From: Enterovibrio calviensis DSM 14347
GTDB lineage: Bacteria; Pseudomonadota; Gammaproteobacteria; Enterobacterales; Vibrionaceae
NCBI RefSeq assembly: GCF_000621165.1
Contig: NZ_KK211217.1
Coordinates: forward strand, 186,001 to 250,000
Length of the DNA: 64,000 nucleotides
Direction of reading: 5' to 3'
The notes beneath the pieces were generated by a model. That model did no database searches, was not told where the DNA came from, and was given only the letters and a program-made list of their open reading frames with translations. This document shows, piece after piece, positions 23,615 through 62,442 of the stretch (positions within the stretch are counted from its first letter, which is position 1; each line of letters starts with the position of its first letter). Position numbers and translations under genes: made by a program.

Positions 23615-24682
23615 ATGAAATTACTAATCACCGGCGGTGCCGGATTTATCGGCTCTGCTGTTGTCAGGCACATCATTCAGAACACAAGTGATTGTGTTGT
23701 CAACGTAGACAATCTCACCTATGCGGGAAATTTGGAGTCATTACTCAGCGTTTCTGATAATGAGCGTTATGCTTTTGAACATGTCGACATTTGTAACAGA
23801 AGTGAATTAGATCGCGTATTTGCGGTTCACCAACCTGACGCTGTGATGCATTTGGCGGCAGAAAGTCATGTTGACCGCTCTATTGATGGCCCAGCCGCAT
23901 TTATTGAAACCAATATTGTGGGCACATATACCCTTCTTGAATCTGCTCGTAGTTATTGGCTTGGTCTTGAAGCGGATAAAAAAGCAGCGTTTCGTTTTCA
24001 CCACATTTCTACCGATGAAGTATATGGTGACCTTGAAGGCACTGATGATTTGTTTACCGAAACAACATCTTATGCGCCAAGTAGCCCTTATTCTGCGTCA
24101 AAGGCCTCTAGTGATCATTTGGTGCGTGCTTGGCAACGTACTTATGGCTTCCCTACGTTGGTCACCAATTGCTCGAATAACTACGGCCCGTTCCACTTCC
24201 CTGAAAAACTCATCCCGTTGATCATATTGAATGCCATTTCTGGTAAATCATTACCTGTTTATGGTGATGGCATGCAGATCCGTGACTGGTTGTTTGTTGA
24301 AGATCATGCTCGTGCACTATACAAAGTGGCAACGGAAGGTGAAGTCGGTGAAACATACAATATTGGTGGCCACAACGAAAAAGCCAATATTGAGGTTGTC
24401 AAAACGATTTGCCGTTTGTTAGAAGAGCTTGTTCCAAATAAGCCCGAGGGCGTTGAATCCTATGAAGGTTTGATCACCTATGTGAAGGACCGCCCAGGTC
24501 ATGATGTTCGTTATGCTATTGATGCATCGAAAATCAGTCGCGAACTTGATTGGGTGCCTGAAGAAACGTTTGATAGCGGCATTAGAAAAACCGTTGAGTG
24601 GTATTTGGACAACCGTGTCTGGTGGACACGTGTGTTAGATGGCTCATATAGCTTAGAGCGCCTTGGTGCGGGAGAAGAATAA
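23615..24682 (+). CDS. rmlB: dTDP-glucose 4,6-dehydratase RmlB
   Basis: 355 residues. Converts dTDP-glucose to dTDP-4-keto-6-deoxyglucose, the branch point for L-rhamnose and for 3-amino-3,6-dideoxy sugars, both of which this locus appears to make. NAD-binding GGAGFIGS at the N-terminus; catalytic THR/Asp-Glu in [16 protein letters not shown] as the Tyr-Lys pair. First gene of a co-oriented run up to 38.4 kb. The next gene starts immediately after its stop. Confidence 0.96.
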
Positions 24683-25555
24683 GTGAAAGGTATTATCCTA
24701 GCTGGCGGATCTGGTACTCGCCTATACCCTATTACGCGTGGTGTGTCGAAGCAGTTACTGCCTGTATACGACAAACCTATGATTTATTATCCGCTGTCTA
24801 CATTGATGCTAGCCGGCATTCGCGACATTTTGATAATTACAACACCGGAAGATAATGAAAGCTTTAGGCGACTATTGGGGGATGGCAGTGACTTTGGCAT
24901 TAACCTTGAGTACGCCATTCAAGAAAAGCCCGACGGTTTAGCACAAGCCTTTATTATCGGTGAGTCTTTTATCGGTTCAGATAGCGTTTGTTTGGTTCTG
25001 GGTGACAACATATTCTACGGACAGTCTTTCTCTAAAACGCTGCGCCAAGCAGTTTCGCGCGAACAAGGCGCAACAGTGTTTGGTTATTACGTGAAAGATC
25101 CAGAGCGCTTTGGTGTGGTCGAATTTGATGCAGACTATCGCGCTGTGAGTATTGAAGAAAAACCCGACGTACCAAAATCGAACTGGGCGGTAACAGGACT
25201 GTATTTTTATGACAACCGTGTGGTGGAAATCGCCAAAGCGGTTGAGCCGTCTGAACGTGGCGAGTTAGAAATTACGTCGGTCAACCAAGCTTACCTTGAA
25301 ATGGGTGAACTAAACGTGGAACAGCTAGGCCGTGGTTTTGCCTGGTTGGATACAGGTACGCATGAAAGTTTGCATGAAGCGTCTTCGTTTGTTCAAACAA
25401 TCGAGCATGTGCAGGGGTTAAAAGTGGCATGCCTTGAAGAAATCGCTTGGCGAAACGGCTGGTTGGATAATAGTCAGCTTGAAGCGTTAGCAGGCCCAAT
25501 GATGAAAAATGAATATGGGCGTTATTTGATGTCCCTTCTTTCTATGCCACAGTAA
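24683..25555 (+). CDS. rmlA: Glucose-1-phosphate thymidylyltransferase RmlA
   Basis: 290 residues. Makes dTDP-glucose from glucose-1-phosphate and dTTP. Nucleotidyltransferase signature GGSGTRLYP, then [17 protein letters not shown], and active-site segments [10 protein letters not shown] and [20 protein letters not shown] start abuts the rmlB stop, with GGAGA upstream. Confidence 0.96.
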
Positions 25556-25566
25556 AAGGTGGAACG

Positions 25567-26445
25567 ATGAGGATTCTCGTTACGGGTGCCAAAGGGCAAG
25601 TTGGAACCGAGCTATGCAATAGACTTGCAGGTAAAGTCGATTTACTTGCTTTGGATCGCGGTGAATTAGACATCTCTGACCGTGAAGCAGTCTCTAAATG
25701 TGTGTCTGAGTTTGGCCCAGATGTCATTATTAATGCCGCCGCTCACACGGCTGTGGATCGCGCTGAATCTGAAGAGGGCTTATCCAACGCCATCAATCGT
25801 GATGGGCCATTATTCTTGGCCCAATCAGCCAATGCGATCGGCGCGGTCATACTCCACATCTCGACGGATTACGTGTTCGATGGACAGTCAGATGTTCCAT
25901 ATTTGGAAACGGATAACACGGCACCGCAAGGGATATATGGCATTACCAAACTAGCGGGCGAGCAAGCATTGGCGTCTGCTTGCCACAAGCACGTTATTTT
26001 ACGTACTGCTTGGGTGTTTGGAGAGTATGGTGGCAATTTTGTAAAGACGATGCTGCGTCTGGGGGCTGAAAAACCAGAACTTGGTATTGTCGCTGATCAA
26101 GTAGGAGCGCCAACTCACGCGGGCGATATAGCAGACGCTTTGATTAGCATTGCGTTCTCTGTGACCTCTGAGAAGCAAGGTGATTCACCTTGGGGTGTTT
26201 ACCATTACTCAGGTTTTCCTTATGTATCATGGTTTGAGTTTGCTCAGTGTATTTTCTCAGAAGCTGTAAAACAGAAACAGCTTGAGGCTGCACCGGTCCT
26301 TAAGCCTTTGGCAACAGAGGATTACCCTACACCTGCAGCAAGACCCGCAAATTCTCGTCTCAACTGCTCAAAAATTAAATCGTCATTTGGTGTTGAACCA
26401 AGTGACTGGCTGAGCGCCCTGAAAAACCTCAAAGCATATAAGTAG
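25567..26445 (+). CDS. rmlD: dTDP-4-dehydrorhamnose reductase RmlD
   Basis: 292 residues. Last step of dTDP-L-rhamnose synthesis. Cofactor loop GAKGQVGTEL, STDYVFDG, and the Tyr-Lys pair in YGITKLAGE. AGGTGGA precedes the ATG. The rml genes here run B-A-D-C. Confidence 0.94.
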   Translation: MRILVTGAKGQVGTELCNRLAGKVDLLALDRGELDISDREAVSKCVSEFGPDVIINAAAHTAVDRAESEEGLSNAINRDGPLFLAQSANAIGAVILHISTDYVFDGQSDVPYLETDNTAPQGIYGITKLAGEQALASACHKHVILRTAWVFGEYGGNFVKTMLRLGAEKPELGIVADQVGAPTHAGDIADALISIAFSVTSEKQGDSPWGVYHYSGFPYVSWFEFAQCIFSEAVKQKQLEAAPVLKPLATEDYPTPAARPANSRLNCSKIKSSFGVEPSDWLSALKNLKAYK

Positions 26446-26450
26446 TGACC

Positions 26451-27005
26451 ATGAAAATTGTTGATACCGCAATTCCTGAAGTCAAAATCATCGAACCTAG
26501 AGTGTTCGGAGATGAACGAGGCTTTTTTATGGAAACCTGGAACCAAGAAAAGTTTGAAACGCTTGTAACAGGTAAACCAACACAATTTGTTCAGGATAAT
26601 CATTCAAAATCCACGAAAGGGATTTTGAGAGGGCTGCATTATCAGCTGGAAAACGTTCAAGGTAAACTTGTACGCGTTGTATCCGGTGAAGTGTTTGATG
26701 TGGCAGTTGATATTCGTGAAGATTCACCGACTTTTGGTCAGTGGGTAGGGGTTTATCTTTCGGCAGAAAATCAACGACAACTTTGGGTGCCAGAAGGTTT
26801 CGCTCATGGTTTTTATGTAACCAGCGATGAGGCTGAGTTTGTATATAAATGTACGGATTATTACAATCCGGCTGCTGAAAAATCAATCATTTGGAACGAC
26901 AGTGATTTAAGTATCGACTGGCCTATAAATAATAATCTGGTGATGGTATCTCAGAAGGACAGTGAAGCGTCTGCATTCAAACAATCTACCTATTTGAAGG
27001 TGTAG
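26451..27005 (+). CDS. rmlC: dTDP-4-dehydrorhamnose 3,5-epimerase RmlC
   Basis: 184 residues from ATG 26451 (a GTG two codons upstream overlaps the rmlD stop; family members begin MKxxDTAIPxVKIIEP, which favours the ATG). Cupin epimerase with the catalytic His in RGLHYQ and the Tyr/His pocket segment PEGFAHGFYV. Completes the L-rhamnose pathway. Confidence 0.95.
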   Translation: MKIVDTAIPEVKIIEPRVFGDERGFFMETWNQEKFETLVTGKPTQFVQDNHSKSTKGILRGLHYQLENVQGKLVRVVSGEVFDVAVDIREDSPTFGQWVGVYLSAENQRQLWVPEGFAHGFYVTSDEAEFVYKCTDYYNPAAEKSIIWNDSDLSIDWPINNNLVMVSQKDSEASAFKQSTYLKV

Positions 27006-27006
27006 T

Positions 27007-27813
27007 GTGCTAAATAATTACAATTTTCTACGGCCTTCACTTGTTGAACGTAGCCTGATTTCTACGTTGGCAAAAAGAGACATATCAGCGCGATACAAAA
27101 ACTCTTTAATCGGTATCGTTTGGAGTTTTGCACACCCTCTATTCATGCTTGTTATATATACGTTTGTCTTCCAGTATATTTTTAAAGCTAAGTGGGGTGG
27201 GACGCAAGAAGTCAACGCGAGCTTTGCTTCGATATTATTTTCCGGATTAATTATTCACATGTTGTTTGCTGAAGTTATCAGTAGAAGTACCACTGTTATT
27301 GTGGGCAATGTGAATTATGTGAAAAAAATAGTTTTTCCACTTGAAACACTTTGCTGGAGTTTGATTCTTTCCTCTCTGGTTCAATTTGCATGTGGTCTTG
27401 GGATCTTGTTTCTATTTCTATTGGTAAGTGGATCTCCTGTTCATGCTGGCATTATTGCCATCCCATTGGTTATGCTCCCTATGGTGATCATGCTAGTAGG
27501 CCTATCTTATTTACTTGCTGCTCTCACAGTGTTTATTCGTGATTTAGAACAAGTTATTCATGTGATGGTCACTGTGGTGCTATTTACGAGTACAGTGTTT
27601 TTTCCTTTAGATATGGTGCCATCTATTATTGCGCCGTTGATCAAGGTTAATCCAATCACTATACCGGTAGAGGCGGTGAGAAGTTTAGTATTTGATATCA
27701 GCCCATTAAACTATAAAGACTTGGCTATTTATGCTGTTGTTAGCACGGTTTTTGCGGCACTAAGTTATCGTCTGTTTAATTTTTTGAAGCCAACTTTTGC
27801 TGATGTGATATAG
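27007..27813 (+). CDS. wzm: O-polysaccharide ABC transporter permease Wzm
   Basis: 268 residues, six membrane segments, ABC-2 family (KRDISARYKNSLIGIVWSFAHPLFMLVIYTFV in part). Exports lipid-linked polysaccharide across the inner membrane with Wzt. GTG start one base after the rmlC stop. Its presence means the O-chain of this locus is made to full length in the cytoplasm before export. Confidence 0.93.
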   Translation: MLNNYNFLRPSLVERSLISTLAKRDISARYKNSLIGIVWSFAHPLFMLVIYTFVFQYIFKAKWGGTQEVNASFASILFSGLIIHMLFAEVISRSTTVIVGNVNYVKKIVFPLETLCWSLILSSLVQFACGLGILFLFLLVSGSPVHAGIIAIPLVMLPMVIMLVGLSYLLAALTVFIRDLEQVIHVMVTVVLFTSTVFFPLDMVPSIIAPLIKVNPITIPVEAVRSLVFDISPLNYKDLAIYAVVSTVFAALSYRLFNFLKPTFADVI

Positions 27814-27823
27814 GTTTAGCGAC

Positions 27824-29137
27824 ATGTATTCTATTAAAGTTACTGATATTCAAAAACGCTATTATCTCTTCAATAACCCTCTTGAGGTTTTACTAAGCAG
27901 AATTTTCCCTAACAAAAAAGTGAAGGAGTTTTTCGCGCTAAAAGGTGTGTCTTTTGAAGCGGGTATTGGTGAAACCATTGGTATAGTCGGTCACAACGGC
28001 TCAGGAAAGTCTACGCTACTCCAGATAATTACCGGTGTTTTGCAAGCCTCAAAAGGGGATGTCGAGGTAAATGGCCGTGTGGCTGCATTACTTGAACTTG
28101 GTTCTGGCTTCAACCCAGAGTTTACGGGATTAGAAAACGTATATTTTAATGCTTCAATTATCGGCCTCAAGCGCCATGAAATCGATGAACGGCTAGAAAA
28201 AATATTGGCGTTTGCTGATATTGGCGAGTTTATCGATCGCCCTGTAAAAACCTATTCTTCCGGCATGATGGTCAGGCTCGCTTTTTCCGTGCTAATTAAC
28301 ATTGATCCCGATATTCTCATTGTTGATGAGGCGCTTGCGGTTGGGGATGATGCTTTTCAGCGTAAGTGTTTTGCAAGACTAAAAGAACTTCAGGCTCAGG
28401 GTGTAACTATTATCCTTGTGTCACACAGCGCAGGTCAGGTTATCTCGTTGTGTGATCGGGCAATTCTGTTAGATCATGGTGACGTTCTTTTGGAAGGTGA
28501 TCCACGTGAAGTGATAAAGCATTATCACAAGCTTTTGAATATGGAAGGTCTCAAACGAGAAAGCTACCGCAATGAGCTGCAACTTCACGGTTTTAATGCA
28601 ACCGCCGCATCATCGACTGACGAGATTGATACTCAACAACAGAAAGTTAAGACAGTCAATACGCCGAGTGAATCGGCTCTCTGGTATGACAAGAATGGTG
28701 CTGAAATCTCTGATCCTCGGATTGTTGATGAAGAAGGTGAGCCAGTTGACGTTTTGAAGTCGGCACATCGATATCAGTTTCAATATCGTGTTAAATTTAG
28801 TGACGATTGCTTTGATGTATTCCTTGGCATGATGATAAGAAATGTTGCGGGTTTTGAGCTAGGTGGAGCAACATCTGCACATGATAAGAGTTTAATCATT
28901 CAGAGTGCTAAGCGTGATGATGTTATAGATGTAACGATAGAGTTTACGTGTAACCTAAGAAATGGAACGTACTTTTTGAACTGTGGATGTTTTGGAACGA
29001 AGGATGGAAAGCCTACGTTTTTGAACAGAGGCGTCGATATTTTGAGCTTCAAGGTGGTAGAGCAGAACAACATTTCTACTGGGACGGTAGACTTTTTTCC
29101 CAAATATACAGTTGAGAAAGGTATTCTGACTCCATGA
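27824..29137 (+). CDS. wzt: O-polysaccharide ABC transporter ATPase Wzt with C-terminal glycan-binding domain
   Basis: 437 residues. Nucleotide-binding domain: Walker A GHNGSGKST (56-64), signature YSSGMMVRLAFS (about 146), Walker B ILIVDEALAVGD. From about residue 275 a beta-sandwich Wzt_C domain follows (ALWYDKNGAEISD, FQYRVKFSDDCFDVFLGMMI, FLNCGCFG). In E. coli O8/O9a this extension recognises the modified non-reducing end of the chain, so export depends on a terminator enzyme. The next gene, a sulfotransferase with a heptad-repeat tail, is a candidate for that enzyme. Confidence 0.94.
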   Translation: MYSIKVTDIQKRYYLFNNPLEVLLSRIFPNKKVKEFFALKGVSFEAGIGETIGIVGHNGSGKSTLLQIITGVLQASKGDVEVNGRVAALLELGSGFNPEFTGLENVYFNASIIGLKRHEIDERLEKILAFADIGEFIDRPVKTYSSGMMVRLAFSVLINIDPDILIVDEALAVGDDAFQRKCFARLKELQAQGVTIILVSHSAGQVISLCDRAILLDHGDVLLEGDPREVIKHYHKLLNMEGLKRESYRNELQLHGFNATAASSTDEIDTQQQKVKTVNTPSESALWYDKNGAEISDPRIVDEEGEPVDVLKSAHRYQFQYRVKFSDDCFDVFLGMMIRNVAGFELGGATSAHDKSLIIQSAKRDDVIDVTIEFTCNLRNGTYFLNCGCFGTKDGKPTFLNRGVDILSFKVVEQNNISTGTVDFFPKYTVEKGILTP

Positions 29138-30300
29138 TAAATAAACAGGTTTTCGTTGTTCTAGGGATGCACCGAAGTGGTACAAGCGCCCTTTCTGGTG
29201 AATTGCACCATCAGGGTGTCTTTTTCGGCGAAAACTTTATTGACGATATTGAAACTGTAAACGAAAAGGGATTTTACGAGCATCGTGAACTGGTCGATAT
29301 CAATGAGTGTATTCTAGATGAACTCGGTGCGGCTTGGTATGACTGCTTTGATGTTTATGCACAGGTCAATCAGGGTTGGCGTCCTTCTGAGAAAATTATA
29401 AATCGAATTAAGCAATTTCTGGTCTCTGATGAGTTTTCAGATCACCAGCTTATAGGCATAAAAGACCCAAGACTTTGTCTTTTATACCCGATCTGGCAGG
29501 AGCAAATTAAAATCGCTGGGCTAACGGCACATGTAGTTATGGTTAATCGAGATGTTTCTTGCGTAGCAGCTTCTTTGGCACGTCGTGATGATATGGTTCA
29601 CATGCATTCAGCATTGCTATGGAATTACTACACGATATCAGCGGCGATGGCGGCAAATCAATCTAATGGTTATTGGATTGAGACTGAGGGGATGTTCTCT
29701 AACCCGTTGCTTGAGATCTCTAGAATGCTTGCATGGTTTGATATTGACCTTAATGTTCAAACCGCGAAATTTATTGACCCTAAGATACCTAAGTCTATCG
29801 CAAACCCGATGAATTGTGACTTGTCTCGACGTATTTTAGATGCATCTTCACCCTTGTTGGATGTTGATTGGTTGCAGGAAATGCAGTCTTTTTCTGATCG
29901 CTATTTAAGTCAACGTGAGTTTATCCGAGCTATTTTAGATAGTTTTAAGCTTATCAATGATGCAAATATTAAGGCGATAAATAATGGTGAAAATTATTCA
30001 CATGCTTTGTGCGTGATTAACTCAAAGGATGAAGCTATCGAGTACAGAGATAATATCATTGTTGCCAAAGATGCATTTATCGCAGAGAAAGATCAGTTTA
30101 TCGCAGAGAAAGACCAGTTTATCGCAGAGAAAGACCAGTTTATCGCAGAGAAAGACCAATTAATTGCTGAAAATAGTATTGCAATTGAAAACTTAGAAAA
30201 TGAAAAAAATCTGTTGGTGGAAAAAATAAACCATTATGAAAACATTTTTGGCATTCGTTTGTTACGAAAAATCAAAAGACGTATTAAAGTGATACTATGA
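29134..30300 (+). CDS. Sulfotransferase with C-terminal heptad-repeat tail
   Basis: 388 residues. The N-terminal half is a PAPS-dependent sulfotransferase: 5'-phosphosulfate loop GMHRSGTSAL (11-20) and 3'-phosphate site VNRDVSCVAASLARR (137-151; Arg139, Ser147). Residues about 300-370 form a long helix with four near-identical heptads AEKDQFI/AEKDQLI at 317-344, then further helix and a basic amphipathic end (RLLRKIKRRIKVIL) suited to membrane contact. ATGA overlap with wzt. The position wzm-wzt-X equals that of wbdD in E. coli O9a, whose coiled coil sets chain length. A combined terminator and ruler role is inference. Confidence 0.8.
   Translation: MINKQVFVVLGMHRSGTSALSGELHHQGVFFGENFIDDIETVNEKGFYEHRELVDINECILDELGAAWYDCFDVYAQVNQGWRPSEKIINRIKQFLVSDEFSDHQLIGIKDPRLCLLYPIWQEQIKIAGLTAHVVMVNRDVSCVAASLARRDDMVHMHSALLWNYYTISAAMAANQSNGYWIETEGMFSNPLLEISRMLAWFDIDLNVQTAKFIDPKIPKSIANPMNCDLSRRILDASSPLLDVDWLQEMQSFSDRYLSQREFIRAILDSFKLINDANIKAINNGENYSHALCVINSKDEAIEYRDNIIVAKDAFIAEKDQFIAEKDQFIAEKDQFIAEKDQLIAENSIAIENLENEKNLLVEKINHYENIFGIRLLRKIKRRIKVIL
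30079..30162 (+). repeat. In-frame 21-bp tandem repeat (4 units)
   Basis: Four 21-bp units, 30079-30099, 30100-30120, 30121-30141 and 30142-30162. The first three differ by one base (GAT/GAC); the last ends CAATTA instead of CAGTTT. Each encodes IAEKDQF/L, one heptad. Near-identity at the DNA level suggests recent expansion and easy length change without frameshift. Confidence 0.95.
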
Positions 30301-32432
30301 CTAAAGTAGATGTAATAATTCCAGTGTACCGAGGTTTAGTTGAAACGTCAGAGTGCATCATATCAGCATATAATACATTGCCAGAGTGGGCTAACCTGAT
30401 TGTAGTTAATGACTCATCGCCGGAGCCTGAGCTTTCAAAATGGTTGATTGAACATTCTGAAACGTACAATTACACCTTGTATGAGAATAAAGAAAACTTA
30501 GGTTTTGTTGCGACCGTTAACTTTGCGATGGCACTAAATGCTAATAACGACGTTCTCTTGTTGAATAGTGATGTCGAAGTCGAGAATGACTGGTTAGATA
30601 GGATCCAAGAAGTCGCATACTTGGATGAGAAAATTGGCTCAGTCACACCTTTTTCAAACAATGCTACTATATGTAGCTATCCAAATTTCTGTGAAGACAA
30701 TCGTTTGGCAAAGGGGAAATCGCTAAAAGAAATAGATCTGGCGTTTTCTAAGGCAAATAATCCTGAACAATATATCGAAATTCCAACAGGCGTTGGATTC
30801 TGTATGTTCATTAAACGTAAATGTTTGGATGACGTAGGTCTATTTGATTTAGAGACATTCGGCAAGGGATACGGAGAAGAAAACGATTGGTGTCAACGTG
30901 CCATTGTAAATGGCTGGTCAAATGTTCATGCAGTTAATGTTTTTGCTTACCATAAAGGGGGAGTGAGCTTTGCCGATGAACAACATCCACGTCAGAAAGT
31001 CGCTCTGGAATTGCTTCTTGGTAAACACCCAAACTACACGGCTGACGTAATGCAATTCGTTGCGAATGATCCTGCCAAAATGGCCAGAATTCGCGCAGCA
31101 ATTGAATTGGTTAGACGCTCTGAACGGTCTGTATTGCAGGTTGAGCATGCGTTGGGTGGCGGTGTTACACGGCATGTGGATGATTTGGTTCTTCACCTAG
31201 AGCCTACAATTGCCTCAGTTCGTTTAAGGCAAAGTGGTGATAACGTTGAATTGTTGATTGACGAATCCAATAAACTCCAATTTAACGTAAACAGTGATCG
31301 CGAAAAACTTTTTCAGATACTGCATTATTTGAATTTTAGTCTTGTTCACTTCCACCATATACATGGTTTAGACCCGTCATTTCTGTCACTGAGTGAACAA
31401 TTGTCGACGCCATACTGTATTACTGCTCATGACTATTATTTAGTCAGTGGGAATGCGGCGTTGACCAATGACCTAGGTGAGTTCTTTGGTGATGAGAGTA
31501 CCGAAGTTGTTTTGGAGAAGTCAAAGAGCAATCGTTTGGCGGGTTATATGTTTGCAGATGCAGATTCGGCAGCGACATTGACCAAATTTATTGTCAATGC
31601 ATCGATGGTCATTTATCCGTCTAGAGATACGATGGAGCGTTTTTGTCGTTTTTATGATGTCTCTGATAGAAGTGTAGTTGCTCATCATCGTGAAGAGATC
31701 TACGGTCTTGAAGGCATTGCTATTGAAAAAAACACGTCAGAGAAAGTGAAAGTATTAGTGGTCGGCGCAATTTCTCTTGAGAAAGGCGCACAGTTACTGA
31801 ATGACTTTGCAAATAAGTATGGCGAAGAATTAGAAATCAATGTTTTGGGCTACTCTTGTATTCCTCTGCACGACCATATTGTTGACCACGGGCAATATTC
31901 CGACTCTGAACTGCTAGCGAAGATATCAAATATTTCCCCTGATGTCGTTTGGTATACGTCCCAATGTGCTGAGACATACTGCTATACGTTGACACCAGCC
32001 ATTGCATTAGGCTTACCTATTGTCGCCCCTAATATTGGAGCGTTTACCGAACGTCTGGCTGGCCTTCCTGAAGTAAAACTTCTCAATGATTTCAATGATA
32101 TTGATAGCGCCTATAGTGGAATGCTGGACCTTGTTTCTTGTACGAGAGGGAAACCTTATTGTTATGCCGAACGCAATACAGGGAAGCAGTCTGACTTTTA
32201 TAAAAAGGAATATCTGGCGATTGTGAAACCTTTAGAAGTCGTCGAACTAGAGCCAGGCTTTGAAATATCTTCACTTCTCGAGTCTAGAAACGCCGAGACA
32301 CTAGCACCTACAGCAAGTCACTATTTCTATGATATGGCGTTGAAAATATATCGTAGTCCTTTAGGGCGTGTTATAGGACGGATAGTCCCACCGCACTATC
32401 TAAGAAAAATAAAAAGGAAGGTTTTTGGATGA
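30297..32432 (+). CDS. Two-domain glycosyltransferase (GT2 plus GT4-like)
   Basis: 711 residues. Residues 1-255 are a GT2 domain: VDVIIPVYRG, VVNDSSPEPE, LLLNSDVEVENDW, and GEENDWCQR as the acidic catalytic segment. From about 285 (VLQVEHALGGGVTRHVDDL) a GT-B/GT4-like domain follows: ITAHDYYLVSGN, VIYPSRDTMERF, VVGAISLEKGAQLL, and CYTLTPAIALGLPIVAPNIGA near the donor site. It ends in a basic helix (LRKIKRKVFG) like that of the previous gene. ATGA overlaps on both sides. A dual-activity polymerase of the O-chain is likely; sugars cannot be read. Confidence 0.88.
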   Translation: MTKVDVIIPVYRGLVETSECIISAYNTLPEWANLIVVNDSSPEPELSKWLIEHSETYNYTLYENKENLGFVATVNFAMALNANNDVLLLNSDVEVENDWLDRIQEVAYLDEKIGSVTPFSNNATICSYPNFCEDNRLAKGKSLKEIDLAFSKANNPEQYIEIPTGVGFCMFIKRKCLDDVGLFDLETFGKGYGEENDWCQRAIVNGWSNVHAVNVFAYHKGGVSFADEQHPRQKVALELLLGKHPNYTADVMQFVANDPAKMARIRAAIELVRRSERSVLQVEHALGGGVTRHVDDLVLHLEPTIASVRLRQSGDNVELLIDESNKLQFNVNSDREKLFQILHYLNFSLVHFHHIHGLDPSFLSLSEQLSTPYCITAHDYYLVSGNAALTNDLGEFFGDESTEVVLEKSKSNRLAGYMFADADSAATLTKFIVNASMVIYPSRDTMERFCRFYDVSDRSVVAHHREEIYGLEGIAIEKNTSEKVKVLVVGAISLEKGAQLLNDFANKYGEELEINVLGYSCIPLHDHIVDHGQYSDSELLAKISNISPDVVWYTSQCAETYCYTLTPAIALGLPIVAPNIGAFTERLAGLPEVKLLNDFNDIDSAYSGMLDLVSCTRGKPYCYAERNTGKQSDFYKKEYLAIVKPLEVVELEPGFEISSLLESRNAETLAPTASHYFYDMALKIYRSPLGRVIGRIVPPHYLRKIKRKVFG

Positions 32433-35740: not shown

Positions 35741-37743
35741 ACATATATTCTAAGATTGAAAAAGACCTAAATGCGAATTTAATTTGGTATTTTGGTCTTC
35801 TAATAACTCCATTAGTGTTCTATTTTTTTGAGTTGTCAAACATGTCATTCACTCAGGATGAGTTGAGGAGACATAGCAGTTATCGAGTTGACCCTCAGTG
35901 GTTATCTCAGGGTCGATTTGGAATGTACTTTTTAACTTGGGTATATTCTAACAACCCTGTCTTCCCTTATGTTGGTATTTTTCTGTCGAGCGTGATGTCG
36001 ATGGTTGCTATCAGGGTTTTCTTTCAGAAAGTGTGTGGAAAACTTCATTACCCAACTTTGCTCTCTGTTTTATTTGTTAGTTGTCCTTTTCTGTACTATT
36101 TATATAGCTTCTCTACAGTGTCATTCTCTGTTGGGGTTATCTATCTGCTCGTTACATTTTCTGTTTATTGTTGTGTGAGTAGTCGAAGGTCACTGACGTT
36201 AGTCTCAGTGTTACTTCTTGCTTTTTCTCTGAGTATATACCAGTCTGCAATTACCGTTTTTATTCTGATGATCGCGATCTTTGGGTTTTATAAACTAGAG
36301 GATGGTGCGAATCCGATCAAGGAATTGGCCAAGGCCTTTTTCGTACTGGTACTGGCTGGTATTGTTTATTTTGTCGCAAATAAAGCTATTTCGATTGTTT
36401 ATTCAGGCAATCAAAGTGGTTACATTGACGGGTTTGTAAGTGGTGGGCTTTCGACTGACTATGCAGTTACACTGGTCGTTGCATTTATTGCAAGATTTAT
36501 CGAGGTTATGTCCGCTTCTAGTTCCTTACTTCCACAAGAGAATGTGTTTCAACCAATTCTTTCGTTATTGTTTATCGGCCTTGTTGTCTATAAGTACCGG
36601 CTGAAAAACACTCTTTTGTTGCTGCTTGCTTCACTTGCTCTCATCAGTCCTTTTTTACTTGAGTTCCTTTCGCCACAATCCTTACCAACACGAAGTTATA
36701 TCGCCTTGCCACTACTATTTACTTTTGTGATCTATTGGCTAGTTTTATATAGCATGGATAAGCGTCGCTTGGGTTTTATAGTTGCACCTATTTCAGTGCT
36801 TTTTGTGCTTGTTAATTTTATTAACTTAAATAAGTTTGCCTATTATGACAATCTTAGCTGGGATAACGATAAGCGACTGGCTGCAGAGTTAGTATCTCAA
36901 ATTTTGGACTTGCCTGGGTTAGATTCTGTTCTTGAAGAAAATGGAGGGAAGATACCTTTACACTCTGTTGGTTACTTACCGTTTAACCCTAAAATGGCTT
37001 TTAATAAGCAATTTGAAAATGTGGCTAAGGGGTTCTTTGCCTGGGGTGATAACGAATTACAAAACAGTTCTAATTTGTTTAAGTCTTTGGGGTGGGATGC
37101 TTTTTCATACGCTCATTTGGATAGCGTGCGCGATAATGTCAATGAGATTCGTAAGTTGCCGGTTTTCCCTTATTCTGGCTCCGTGTCCATTGTTGATAAA
37201 TTTGTAGTTATCAAGTTTTCCGATTATACAGAGGCTCAGTCTAATAGGCTTTGTAGTAGTCAACATAGAGATACTATCGATTCGTGTCTGATTCAATTCA
37301 ATCCTAGTTCTGTTAGGTTATCCGTTGGTAGTTCACCAAGCAGTATCGATGGACTCAATGAGATTTATACATTCGGGCTTCAAGAATATTTCCGCGTTAG
37401 TCACTCGTCCATCGAACATCGAGATAATGCCTTCTATATGGCATCTGTTGTGTCAGATTCATTTATCACTCTTCCTCCATTAGATTATAATGGGAAAATG
37501 ATCATAGAGTTAGATATTGACTATAGTAGTCTTAGTTCTCTGTCTATGTATTTTAAGACTCGAAAAAAACAGATGTTTAACGAGAGGCAAAGCATAAGGT
37601 TTAACTCTTTGTTAGGACCAAATAAGCTCTATTTTGAGTTGCCAGCTCAACTCTTTAAATACGGGCTTCGTATAGACTTTTCAGGGAACCCTGATGAGTT
37701 CAAGTTAATAAACCTGAAAGTATATAATGGCGAGGCATCATAA
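35737..37743 (+). CDS. GtrC/GtrII-like membrane glycosyltransferase
   Basis: 668 residues. About ten membrane segments in the first 370 residues, then a large soluble C-terminal domain. The first periplasmic loop has FTQDELRRHSSYRVDPQWLSQGRFG, resembling the acidic loop and QGRF motif of the glucosyltransferase GtrII family (Asp/Glu catalytic). It would transfer the GtrB-charged sugar to the O-chain in the periplasm. TTG start at 35737 with AGGAG six bases upstream, overlapping the gtrA-like stop. Confidence 0.83.
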   Translation: MNIYSKIEKDLNANLIWYFGLLITPLVFYFFELSNMSFTQDELRRHSSYRVDPQWLSQGRFGMYFLTWVYSNNPVFPYVGIFLSSVMSMVAIRVFFQKVCGKLHYPTLLSVLFVSCPFLYYLYSFSTVSFSVGVIYLLVTFSVYCCVSSRRSLTLVSVLLLAFSLSIYQSAITVFILMIAIFGFYKLEDGANPIKELAKAFFVLVLAGIVYFVANKAISIVYSGNQSGYIDGFVSGGLSTDYAVTLVVAFIARFIEVMSASSSLLPQENVFQPILSLLFIGLVVYKYRLKNTLLLLLASLALISPFLLEFLSPQSLPTRSYIALPLLFTFVIYWLVLYSMDKRRLGFIVAPISVLFVLVNFINLNKFAYYDNLSWDNDKRLAAELVSQILDLPGLDSVLEENGGKIPLHSVGYLPFNPKMAFNKQFENVAKGFFAWGDNELQNSSNLFKSLGWDAFSYAHLDSVRDNVNEIRKLPVFPYSGSVSIVDKFVVIKFSDYTEAQSNRLCSSQHRDTIDSCLIQFNPSSVRLSVGSSPSSIDGLNEIYTFGLQEYFRVSHSSIEHRDNAFYMASVVSDSFITLPPLDYNGKMIIELDIDYSSLSSLSMYFKTRKKQMFNERQSIRFNSLLGPNKLYFELPAQLFKYGLRIDFSGNPDEFKLINLKVYNGEAS

Positions 37744-38414
37744 TGCTAATTTCTTTACACCTTCCTAAAACCGCAGGTGCTAGTTTTTTAGTGTCTTTGG
37801 AGGATATATATGGAGAGGATCTGTTAAGGGACTATCTTGATTTTCCTATAAATCAGATACCCCTCAAAAGAAAGTTTGATGCATTATCAAAAAATCTAAC
37901 AAGTAGGTTTGCTAACTTAGATAATTACAAGTGTATACATGGGCATTTTCTCCCACTTAAGTATTCTCACCTTTCTGACGCTACTTATATTACGTGGATG
38001 CGTGACCCCATTGAGCGATTGGGATCTCATTACAACTATTGGATTAGAACTTATAATCCTAATGATGCTGGTAAGTTGCACACGAGAGTTGTAGAAGAGG
38101 AGTGGTCGTTTGAGAAATTTTGCTTCAGCCAAGAAATGAGAAACTTTTATGCTAAGTTCCTATGGGGCTTTGATGTGAAGAGGTTTGATTTTATTGGCAT
38201 AACAGAACACTTTGATTCAGATATGACATATTTTGCTGATAAATATTTGGGCGTCTCTCTAAAAAATCACCAAATGAATGTCAATGCAACTAGGGACAAG
38301 AATTCTTCATATTTTGATGACCTAGCCTTTAAAGGCGAAGTTACTAAGTTCCACAGTAAGGACGTCGAACTTTATGAATATGCGCTGAAGAAAAGAATGG
38401 AGCGCATCGGTTGA
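37743..38414 (+). CDS. Second sulfotransferase (Sulfotransfer_2-like)
   Basis: 223 residues. The 5'-phosphosulfate loop is HLPKTAGASF (6-15), the form HxPKTxGxS seen in carbohydrate sulfotransferases, and the 3'-phosphate site is WMRDPIERLGSHYNYW (85-100; Arg87, Ser95). TAATG overlap with the gtrC-like gene, so it is the last gene of the operon. Together with the first sulfotransferase it predicts a sulfated polysaccharide. Confidence 0.85.
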   Translation: MLISLHLPKTAGASFLVSLEDIYGEDLLRDYLDFPINQIPLKRKFDALSKNLTSRFANLDNYKCIHGHFLPLKYSHLSDATYITWMRDPIERLGSHYNYWIRTYNPNDAGKLHTRVVEEEWSFEKFCFSQEMRNFYAKFLWGFDVKRFDFIGITEHFDSDMTYFADKYLGVSLKNHQMNVNATRDKNSSYFDDLAFKGEVTKFHSKDVELYEYALKKRMERIG

Positions 38415-62326: not shown

Positions 62327-62354
62327 TATCTCGTATCTCGTATCTCGTATCTCG
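62327..62354 (+). repeat. 7-bp tandem repeat
   Basis: Four perfect copies of TATCTCG in the galU-wecA gap, with a related GAGATGCGAG just upstream. Simple intergenic repeat; no function seen. Confidence 0.9.
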
Positions 62355-62442
62355 TACCTAGCACCATCTCTGTTTTACAAACTCCCGCCAACCCTCACCC
62401 TCTGAGGCTAGGCTACCCTCCATAACCAAAAATTGAATCCTT

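Follow-up and report, generated by a model that had tools for sequence, protein, structure and literature searches.

A putative sulfate-capping chain terminator with a long C-terminal helix encoded directly after wzm-wzt

Introduction

The locus described here raises the question of what a predicted sulfotransferase that is joined to a long helix may be doing directly after wzm-wzt and before a glycosyltransferase gene. The caps named in the accessible part of PMC9445017 as stopping ABC-transporter-dependent chains and licensing their export are methyl groups, (methyl-)phosphate, and sugars that are added to the chain, for example Kdo. The genes for WbdD (E. coli O9a/O8), Klebsiella O7 ORF6 and O4 ORF7 likewise adjoin wzm-wzt, and, in the sections of PMC11231755 at hand, their products consist of an N-terminal cap enzyme and an extended helix, with the polymerase being either fused or, as here, encoded by the next gene. 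However, where the WbdD-type proteins carry a methyltransferase/kinase or a Kdo transferase, the protein from the 64-kb stretch of DNA analysed in this work (the window) has a predicted sulfotransferase instead. Among the papers listed in searches of part of the open-access literature, a part that lacks one key review, no description was found of a sulfate-capped chain with a coiled-coil ruler. Comparative evidence, drawn from sequences, supports the interpretation that the window protein is fairly probably a sulfate-capping terminator, similar to WbdD but with a different chemistry, and that the chains it ends belong to a surface polysaccharide exported by an ABC transporter, in all likelihood an O-antigen.

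Gene order and features of the locus

The features of the locus are listed in Table 1. The preliminary description had placed a sulfotransferase with a long helix and a basic end in the wbdD position, behind a Wzt with a C-terminal domain, and this agrees with the present results based on PF14524 (86 bits versus a cut-off of 30.4), the fold model and the sequence; the arrangement recurs in several phyla. The sulfotransferase gene overlaps by 4 bp both with the end of wzt and with the start of the glycosyltransferase gene. A similar order upstream of wzm, based on comparison of gene lengths alone, is seen in L188, and a homologue of the second sulfotransferase-like gene is present in L151, two genes after wzt.

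Table 1. Coordinates of the features of the locus within the window
Feature	Position	Strand	Basis or remarks
rmlB-rmlA-rmlD-rmlC-like dTDP-rhamnose genes, cluster head	23615..27005	+	ORFs; names from reading the sequences
wzm, ABC-2 permease	27007..27813	+	PF01061 E 2e-21
wzt, ATPase and C-terminal carbohydrate-binding domain	27824..29137	+	ABC_tran E 5e-22, Wzt_C E 3e-24
Wzt_C domain (PF14524), Wzt residues 287-423	28682..29092	+	E 3e-24; within sulfotransferase-associated clade
Wzt Arg402 codon	29027..29029	+	aligns with A. aeolicus Trp362 (methyl-cap pocket lid; PMC9445017, accessible part)
Sulfotransferase - long helix - basic tail protein, 388 aa, putative sulfate-capping terminator	29134..30300	+	ORF, fold model
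Sulfotransferase domain, about residues 1-237	29134..29844	+	VIA Z 15.1 to TPST1, 201 residues, rmsd 4.0
P-loop GMHRSGTS	29164..29187	+	G11 and R14-S18 invariant in 86 rows
R139...S147 motif	29548..29574	+	invariant in 86 rows; aligned with 1cjm
Single predicted helix, residues 289-387	29998..30294	+	AlphaFold2
Tandem repeat of 21 bp, each unit encoding the heptad FIAEKDQ	30076..30158	+	TRF 4.0 copies, 98% match
Basic C-terminal tail, possible membrane/partner-binding end	30250..30297	+	sequence
Dual GT2-GT4 glycosyltransferase, 711 aa, proposed WbdA-like polymerase partner	30297..32432	+	PF00535, PF13439
Second sulfotransferase-like gene (Sulfotransfer_2-like)	37743..38414	+	PF03567 E 0.003, below cut-off

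Assignment of the N-terminal domain

PAPS sulfotransferases are characterized by a P-loop of the type RSGTS/T and by an R-x7-S motif. Both are present in the window protein, where GMHRSGTS presumably forms the 5'-phosphosulfate loop and R139...S147, which is aligned to the R...S of 1cjm, is taken by us to be a motif of the 3'-phosphate-binding type. In Pfam searches with a limit at E 10 neither a sulfotransferase nor a methyltransferase model matched this protein, a weak AAA_18 match being the sole one to a P-loop model, so that it is classed as a sulfotransferase by its fold, its motifs and the proteins related to it. The profile of the 86-row family matches solved sulfotransferases (the aryl sulfotransferase 1cjm with E 3e-5); as its rows were selected for containing G..RSGTS, the independent invariant residues are only R139, S147, N43, G46, E49, K110 and P112. 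AlphaFold2 run on the single sequence gave a mean pLDDT of 37 with a useless N-terminal domain, and the 86-row alignment was used instead, resulting in a model (mean pLDDT 86, pTM 0.72) with a sulfotransferase fold over residues 1-237. In fold comparison this domain matched TPST1 and 4gox (Z 15.1 and 14.4), and Foldseek assigned the sulfotransferase fold with E 3e-5. The fold and the PAPS motifs are common to the window protein, the tyrosylprotein sulfotransferases, the sulfotransferase domains of PKS and the Sulfotransfer_3 family, but the window protein is distant from them (10-17% identity to the sulfotransferase rows of the fold comparison) and its acceptor is presumably a glycan end. An APS kinase family, for PAPS supply, is found in the genome.

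If the domain were a P-loop kinase-like or inactive enzyme, then the cap would be a phosphate or absent. Such an interpretation would be in accordance with the missing Pfam sulfotransferase match, with Z values of about 10-11 for adenylate kinases, and with the Arg that is also found, at the position aligned with A. aeolicus Trp362, in 2r5o, the domain of the Wzt from E. coli O9a, where the cap is methyl-phosphate. However, it is very improbable in view of the higher Z values of the sulfotransferases and their wider coverage of the domain, the invariance of the R...S pair in all 86 rows, and the relatives L003, L155 and L166, which pass the Sulfotransfer_3 cut-off (L143 passes only that of Sulfotransfer_1, and L004 falls under).

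Exchange of cap enzymes beside wzt

A scan of named genomes with the single window protein detected no relative; with the alignment as query, at least 583 stretches and 414 relatives were found, of which the best 80 were kept. The best identity to the window protein was 33% among 100 relatives and 38%, among the matches listed, in the named scan. A census was made of the 60 best Wzt_C places apart from the window's own, and family models were run on 28 proteins whose genes lie at the first or second place after wzt, most of them chosen for their coil (27 of the 33 coil-bearing ones, and L161). Methyltransferases accounted for 22 of these and sulfotransferases for 4 (three Sulfotransfer_1/3, one Sulfotransfer_2), while one had only a glycosyltransferase and one had none of these. 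As judged from their sequences, sulfotransferases and methyltransferases exchange at the same place beside wzt. Two matches on Cereibacter plasmids had no annotated wzm/wzt in 8-kb flanks, where the gene tables are incomplete.

A homologue of the 711-aa glycosyltransferase directly follows the sulfotransferase gene in all 9 other loci having one at full or near-full length, a set selected by the sulfotransferase. When 369 genomes of the class were searched with this polymerase, matches were seen in 9 (own genome included), at 10 places besides that of the window. Five of these places, lying in larger stretches, have a methyltransferase (L205, L209), a glycosyltransferase (L207, L208) or a sulfotransferase (L206), and the remaining five were viewed with 1.5-kb flanks only. 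The link between polymerase and sulfotransferase is not exclusive, because the polymerase is also fused to, or follows, other coil enzymes. One polymerase family occurs with a sulfotransferase in the Sulfuricella locus L016 and fused to a methyltransferase-coil in L205, both lying within one four-row group (100/100); the Wzt_C of L016 is in the sulfotransferase clade and that of L205 is among the methyltransferase rows (support 83, long branch).

The Wzt_C clade and its cap pocket

In the tree for Wzt_C, the 26 sulfotransferase-labelled rows, from several phyla, and the 21 methyltransferase rows, all from one class, are split by one branch (support 100/99; present in each of 200 bootstrap trees). 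This split was seen again when trimming was symmetric (support 99) and when the tree was extended to 86 rows (98). Four unlabelled rows also fall inside the clade (total 30), each with a sulfotransferase-like gene in the examined stretch, although for L148 and L151 the assignment comes solely from a motif and a homologue (E 0.18 and 0.1, respectively, in Pfam), and the profiles for L148 and L158 were built from those same rows. Among census rows, such a gene is present in 6/6 inside the clade versus 2/53 outside (P 6e-7), or, leaving out L148, in 5/6 versus 2/53 (P 2e-5); L067 (a near-copy of L054), L177 (long branch) and L182 (short contig; outside the 59 census rows) were dropped before these counts. 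Several points count against a terminator: the two kinds of rows differ in taxonomic breadth, as given above, the census rows L159 and L179 outside the clade have a Sulfotransfer_3 gene, on the opposite strand, and the Wzt C-termini of the sulfotransferase loci L042, L052 and L191 also lie outside; these three are unlabelled in the 47-row trees because the profile found no Wzt_C there. In the control tree for the ATPase domain 3-4 changes are needed, but one clade is not rejected (AU p 0.72), and therefore this tree does not offer a clean contrast and operon co-inheritance alone can explain the clade.

The carbohydrate-binding domain of Aquifex aeolicus WzmWzt (8dky, 6o14) is homologous to Wzt_C and its cap pocket can be aligned. 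The accessible part of PMC9445017 describes the terminal sugar as the ligand of the solved domain, with Trp362 stacking on the methyl cap, and W362L as essentially abolishing LPS binding. In nearly all clade members, however, the Thr346/Ala348/Trp362 of this methyl pocket are replaced by Asn/Gly/Arg (T346 to N in 28, A348 to G in 29 and W362 to R in 30 of 30). The residue aligned with Trp362 is W in 14 of the 21 methyltransferase rows, R in 3, Y in 3 and L in 1, and Arg is also present in 9/32 unlabelled rows (12/35 when L042, L052 and L191, all three with Arg, are counted). As it occurs in methyltransferase and unlabelled rows, Arg at this position should not be interpreted as specific to sulfate. 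The earlier suggestion of a terminator recognised by Wzt_C receives indirect support from the clade, the pocket residues, the exchange with methyltransferases and the polymerase family found with either. In such a system, the dual glycosyltransferase would polymerise the chain in the cytoplasm, and the helix of about 100 residues, possibly as a coiled-coil oligomer, would hold the sulfotransferase away from the membrane-near polymerase. If the sulfotransferase then moved sulfate from PAPS onto the non-reducing end, growth would stop, and the chain would be admitted to export after the Wzt C-terminal domain had recognised the sulfated end via the Arg that is invariant in the clade, in place of the Trp of most methyltransferase-linked domains. 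More tentatively, and with some doubt, sulfate could form a further class of terminating caps in several phyla, with the transporter reading the cap largely via one Wzt_C residue (Trp for neutral methyl, Arg for anionic sulfate or methyl-phosphate), so that the cap would be predictable from Wzt.

It is also conceivable, though unlikely, that the sulfotransferase acts on many or all repeat units or on a side group, with the helix serving as a tether to polymerase and membrane and Wzt_C reading sulfated polymer in general. The second sulfotransferase-like gene in the cluster, the other such genes adjoining the coil gene in L185, L186, L187 and L082, and the coil-sulfotransferases for which no wzt was seen in the examined stretch (e.g. 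L036, L066), which also count against a terminator, would all fit with this. However, the position, coil and polymerase partners match those of the methyltransferase terminators, the ligand of the solved Wzt domain is a terminal sugar, as noted above, and sulfate on the repeat units should be revealed by composition, which brings in the case of Aeromonas salmonicida.

Comparison with A. salmonicida

The 'WbbB' of the A. salmonicida wbsalmo cluster (ORF20, 1122 aa) is taken by us, from gene order and length, to be the L082 protein. As at the window locus, this protein has a sulfotransferase N-terminus, a coil and glycosyltransferases near a wzt with Wzt_C, but its glycosyltransferase modules are fused, unlike those of the window locus. 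In the part of PMC4483657 that is accessible, the 'WbbB' mutant is without O-antigen, the protein is assigned capsule and glycosyltransferase domains and no sulfotransferase, and no sulfate is reported for the O-chain. The last point speaks against repeat-unit sulfation and also against the terminator. Analyses of composition can easily overlook a sulfate that is present only once in each chain, so published structures may be incomplete at the chain end that is first met by hosts and phages. If the sulfate-capping interpretation is correct, then it could account for the occurrence of sulfotransferase genes in the A. salmonicida cluster despite the sulfate-free glycan reported there, it would add a cap chemistry with its own Wzt_C clade, and it would provide a sequence rule for the cap type.

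The helix and the question of a ruler

A coiled coil after residue 300, for which the preliminary description proposed a structure prediction, may be present: a re-implementation of COILS gave a peak P of 0.99 within residues 316-372, inside the helix at 289-387, but the residues at the a and d positions are unusual (see below). In L013, which is the nearest named relative, COILS detected no coil, and coil-sulfotransferases also accompany short Wzt proteins without Wzt_C (L014, L022, L206); both of these observations are contrary to a terminator. The C-terminal end of WbdD-type proteins is near the membrane (PMC11231755, sections at hand), and that of the window protein, whose tail is basic (LLRKIKRRIKVIL), may be so as well. 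An anchor motif of the type SWRxTxPLR is absent from it; after the coil, such a motif occurs in 11/21 methyltransferase and 10/26 sulfotransferase proteins versus 26/1660 non-sulfotransferase ORFs (at least 250 aa, methyltransferase proteins included), the pattern having been picked after the motif was seen.

The proposal that the helix acts as a molecular ruler is plausible from the architecture and from repeats in multiples of a heptad, but weaker, on these sequences, than the sulfate-capping role. Among these sulfotransferases, those encoded beside wzt are not significantly more often fused to a coil than the others (17/25 versus 19/38, P 0.20; of the 80 named loci, 78 provided a usable sulfotransferase ORF, and the 3 kb upstream were available for 63), and later coils, as in L064 and L075, are scored as none because the comparison covered 200 residues after the sulfotransferase domain. 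This and the range of coil lengths, from undetected to about 300 residues, would agree with a variant of the favoured interpretation, possible but rather doubtful, in which sulfate caps the chain but the helix serves only for spacing or oligomerisation, the chain length being determined by something else. However, the Klebsiella and E. coli terminators in the available sections of PMC11231755 all have such a coil, the ruler being established in two cases, and tandem repeats within the coils of the present proteins keep whole heptads in 15/19 arrays. The window's own repeat, the top-scoring of 3 arrays in the 64 kb, has in its best heptad register Lys in the a positions and Phe in the d positions, an unusual core that is unfavourable to the terminator and ruler. 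Its one-heptad, 21-bp unit could allow slippage to add or drop ruler turns in this strain.

Identity of the window protein

The open reading frame of the window protein is genuine and tightly coupled to the upstream wzt and to the downstream gene for the 711-aa dual glycosyltransferase; the sulfotransferase-helix gene does directly follow wzt, as the preliminary description had it. In a Pfam scan, the N-terminal domain of the window protein itself gave no sulfotransferase match. The relatives L003, L155 and L166 (handles with L denote the genomic loci compared) pass the Sulfotransfer_3 cut-offs, the profile of the 86-row family of the window protein matches aryl sulfotransferase and SULT chains, and in a fold comparison the predicted model (pLDDT 86) matches tyrosylprotein sulfotransferases with Z 15. 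N43, G46, E49, K110, P112, R139 and S147 are invariant across the 86 rows, which were picked for having the G..RSGTS loop, so that conservation of the loop itself is a selection criterion. The fold match, the invariant residues and the predicted helix (listed below) together uphold the proposed joining of a sulfotransferase to a helix. An APS kinase is encoded in the same genome.

Features of the window discussed in the text
Feature	Position	Strand	Description
Window protein	29134-30300	+	388 aa
Predicted helix	residues 289-387 of the window protein		single helix in the model
Tandem repeat in this helix			21 bp, four copies, unit of one heptad
711-aa enzyme	30297-32432	+	dual GT2-GT4 glycosyltransferase, proposed WbdA-like polymerase
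Second sulfotransferase-like gene of the cluster	37743-38414		
7-bp tandem repeat	62327-62356		TATCTCG, 4.3 perfect copies, between ORFs

The best reading of the window protein, which we regard as probable, is that it terminates chains with a sulfate cap, in a system of the polymerase-terminator type. Among the papers listed by searches of open-access literature, none on a sulfotransferase terminator was found by title or start of abstract, in keeping with the earlier claim that none had been described (reviews may mention one), and word-initial "sulf" is absent from the main text of PMC11231755 and PMC9445017.

Position of the sulfotransferase beside wzt

Among the loci compared, which are the best 80 of at least 414 relatives from a named-genome search with the family alignment, 78 have a usable sulfotransferase ORF; in 27 of these a same-strand wzt lies no more than three genes upstream, and in 18 of the 78 that wzt has the C-terminal carbohydrate-binding domain (Wzt_C). 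The wzt-linked loci include Aeromonas diversa, Aeromonas salmonicida, Sulfuricella, a Neisseriaceae strain, Pseudomonas, Dyella, Desulfonema, a Campylobacteraceae MAG, Cohnella and Paenibacillus. At several loci the sulfotransferase protein is much longer (maximum 1705 aa, L076), and both long proteins scanned (L082, L054) have glycosyltransferase domains.

Wzt_C is present in 93 of 369 class genomes (own genome counted), and the census covers the 60 best places, the window's own left out. The scan covered 28 proteins encoded one or two genes past wzt, namely 27 of the 33 with a coil and the one from L161: 22 matched methyltransferase models, three Sulfotransfer_1/3, one Sulfotransfer_2 (L158), one glycosyltransferase models only and one nothing; therefore a sulfotransferase-coil can replace the methyltransferase-coil at that place. 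These four of 28, with the 27 of 78 wzt-linked relatives, bear out the assignment to the wbdD position, and, as read from the sequences, at least two sulfotransferase families have taken the place of the methyltransferase-coil beside wzt.

Relationship of Wzt_C to the proposed cap enzyme

In the Wzt_C tree, one branch (100/99; present in all 200 bootstrap trees) splits 26 sulfotransferase rows from 21 methyltransferase rows, and symmetric trimming leaves this split unchanged. On the sulfotransferase side, Bacillota and a Campylobacteraceae row lie beside Aeromonas, Pseudomonas and the window, as does L158. A control tree from the ATPase domain of the same genes requires 3-4 changes, but a single clade is not rejected by these data either (p 0.72). 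In an 86-row Wzt_C tree the clade has support of 98 and four unlabelled rows fall inside it. The clade rows L048 and L083 came from the sulfotransferase search itself, the gene of L083 lying four genes away on the opposite strand; L148 and L151 were blind; in these a gene resembling sulfotransferases, recognised by motif and homologue only, stands one place (L148) or two places (L151) past wzt. The L151 gene is a homologue of the second sulfotransferase-like gene of the window's cluster.

Among 59 census rows, a sulfotransferase gene occurs in the retrieved stretch in 6/6 clade versus 2/53 non-clade rows (P 6e-7). For L148 and L158 the profiles derive from those very rows and only L158 has an independent Pfam match, so that the count without L148 (5/6 versus 2/53, P 2e-5) is the more careful one. 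In the two non-clade rows (L159, L179) the gene passes the Sulfotransfer_3 cut-off and lies on the strand opposite wzt. The Wzt C-termini of three further sulfotransferase loci (L042, L052, L191) fall outside the clade.

In Aquifex aeolicus Wzt, Leu300, Thr346, Ala348 and Trp362 form the methyl-cap pocket, and W362L essentially abolishes LPS binding (excerpts of PMC9445017). At these positions the clade (n=30) has Met/Leu in 26, Asn in 28, Gly in 29 and Arg in 30 rows, whereas the methyltransferase rows (n=21) have at the Trp362 position Trp in 14, Arg in three, Tyr in three and Leu in one. A separate profile-to-PDB alignment also places Arg opposite Trp362. This Arg is not specific: it is present in 12 of 35 unlabelled rows, L042, L052 and L191 included. 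It is likewise found at the aligned position of PDB 2r5o, which we take to be the O9a Wzt domain (methyl-phosphate cap). The simplest reading, from a single methyl case and a single presumed methyl-phosphate case, is that Arg here would correspond to anionic caps. Another Wzt_C group (support 95; L140, L142, L144, L147, L150, L152, L153, L157, L160) likewise carries Arg at the Trp362 position. In the five rows inspected (L140, L142, L144, L150, L157) DRRY precedes D or N, as in 2r5o, and the three members scanned adjoin methyltransferases without a recognised kinase. Caps in this group may be methyl-phosphate.

Proposed polymerase partners

Full-length or near-full-length homologues of the 711-aa enzyme lie directly 3' of the sulfotransferase gene (gaps -10 to 95 bp) at nine other loci, drawn from the sulfotransferase-selected set; in other clade loci, e.g. 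L188, the next gene differs. The 369-genome search also found homologues fused after a methyltransferase-coil right before wzm-wzt (L205, the same locus as L139), to a GT-coil (L207, L208) and, more distantly related, to a sulfotransferase-coil (L206). The polymerases of L205 and the sulfotransferase locus L016 share a four-row tree group (100/100); the L016 Wzt_C belongs to the sulfotransferase clade and that of L205 falls among methyltransferase rows (support 83, long branch). This single L205/L016 case is suggestive, though not proof, of a polymerase of one family being paired with either proposed cap enzyme. The methyltransferase-coil-dual GT fusion of L197/L205 resembles a polymerase-terminator in one protein, its polymerase part being of the family seen in the window. 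Past the coil, an anchor motif occurs in 11/21 methyltransferase and 10/26 sulfotransferase proteins versus 26/1660 non-sulfotransferase ORFs (the methyltransferases among them); the motif search did not find it after the coil of the window protein.

The Aeromonas salmonicida cluster

The 1122-aa protein of A. salmonicida (L082) corresponds to ORF20 ("WbbB") in the wbsalmo cluster, an identification based on gene order and length: wzt 438, then 252, 1122, 370, 355 and 457 aa, versus 438, 216, 1122, 370, 355 and 457 aa in PMC4483657. According to excerpts of that paper, the ORF20 mutant lacks O-antigen, the adjoining 216-aa sulfotransferase ORF19 was left unexplained because the reported structure has no sulfate, and S-layer secretion genes are located between wzm and wzt. 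In L185, L186, L187 and L082, wzt is followed by an extra sulfotransferase-like gene (247-252 aa) that precedes the gene for the sulfotransferase-coil. By eye, the sulfotransferase-coil and ~730-aa GT pair of L014, L036 and L066 adjoins genes resembling type II secretion and secreted-protein genes. The capped glycan may thus be linked to an S-layer or to a secreted protein.

Possible growth of the coil

Tandem repeats occur in the coil of 17 of 67 coil-bearing sulfotransferase genes, versus four of 48 other coil-bearing genes at census loci (two of the four in multiples of 21). The period is a multiple of 21 bp in 15 of 19 coil arrays, where one in seven is expected for in-frame repeats; because the heptad code by itself biases toward such multiples, the better figure is six of eight arrays with at least 87% match (P 2e-4). 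This suggests, from sequence, that the coils grow by whole heptads, which does not indicate length control. Two observations speak against the possible molecular ruler: in the best register of the repeat in the window protein, positions a and d are occupied by Lys and Phe, respectively, and fusion to a coil shows no significant excess among sulfotransferases beside wzt (17/25 versus 19/38 of the others). Elsewhere in the window, the TATCTCG repeat could be a slippage site.
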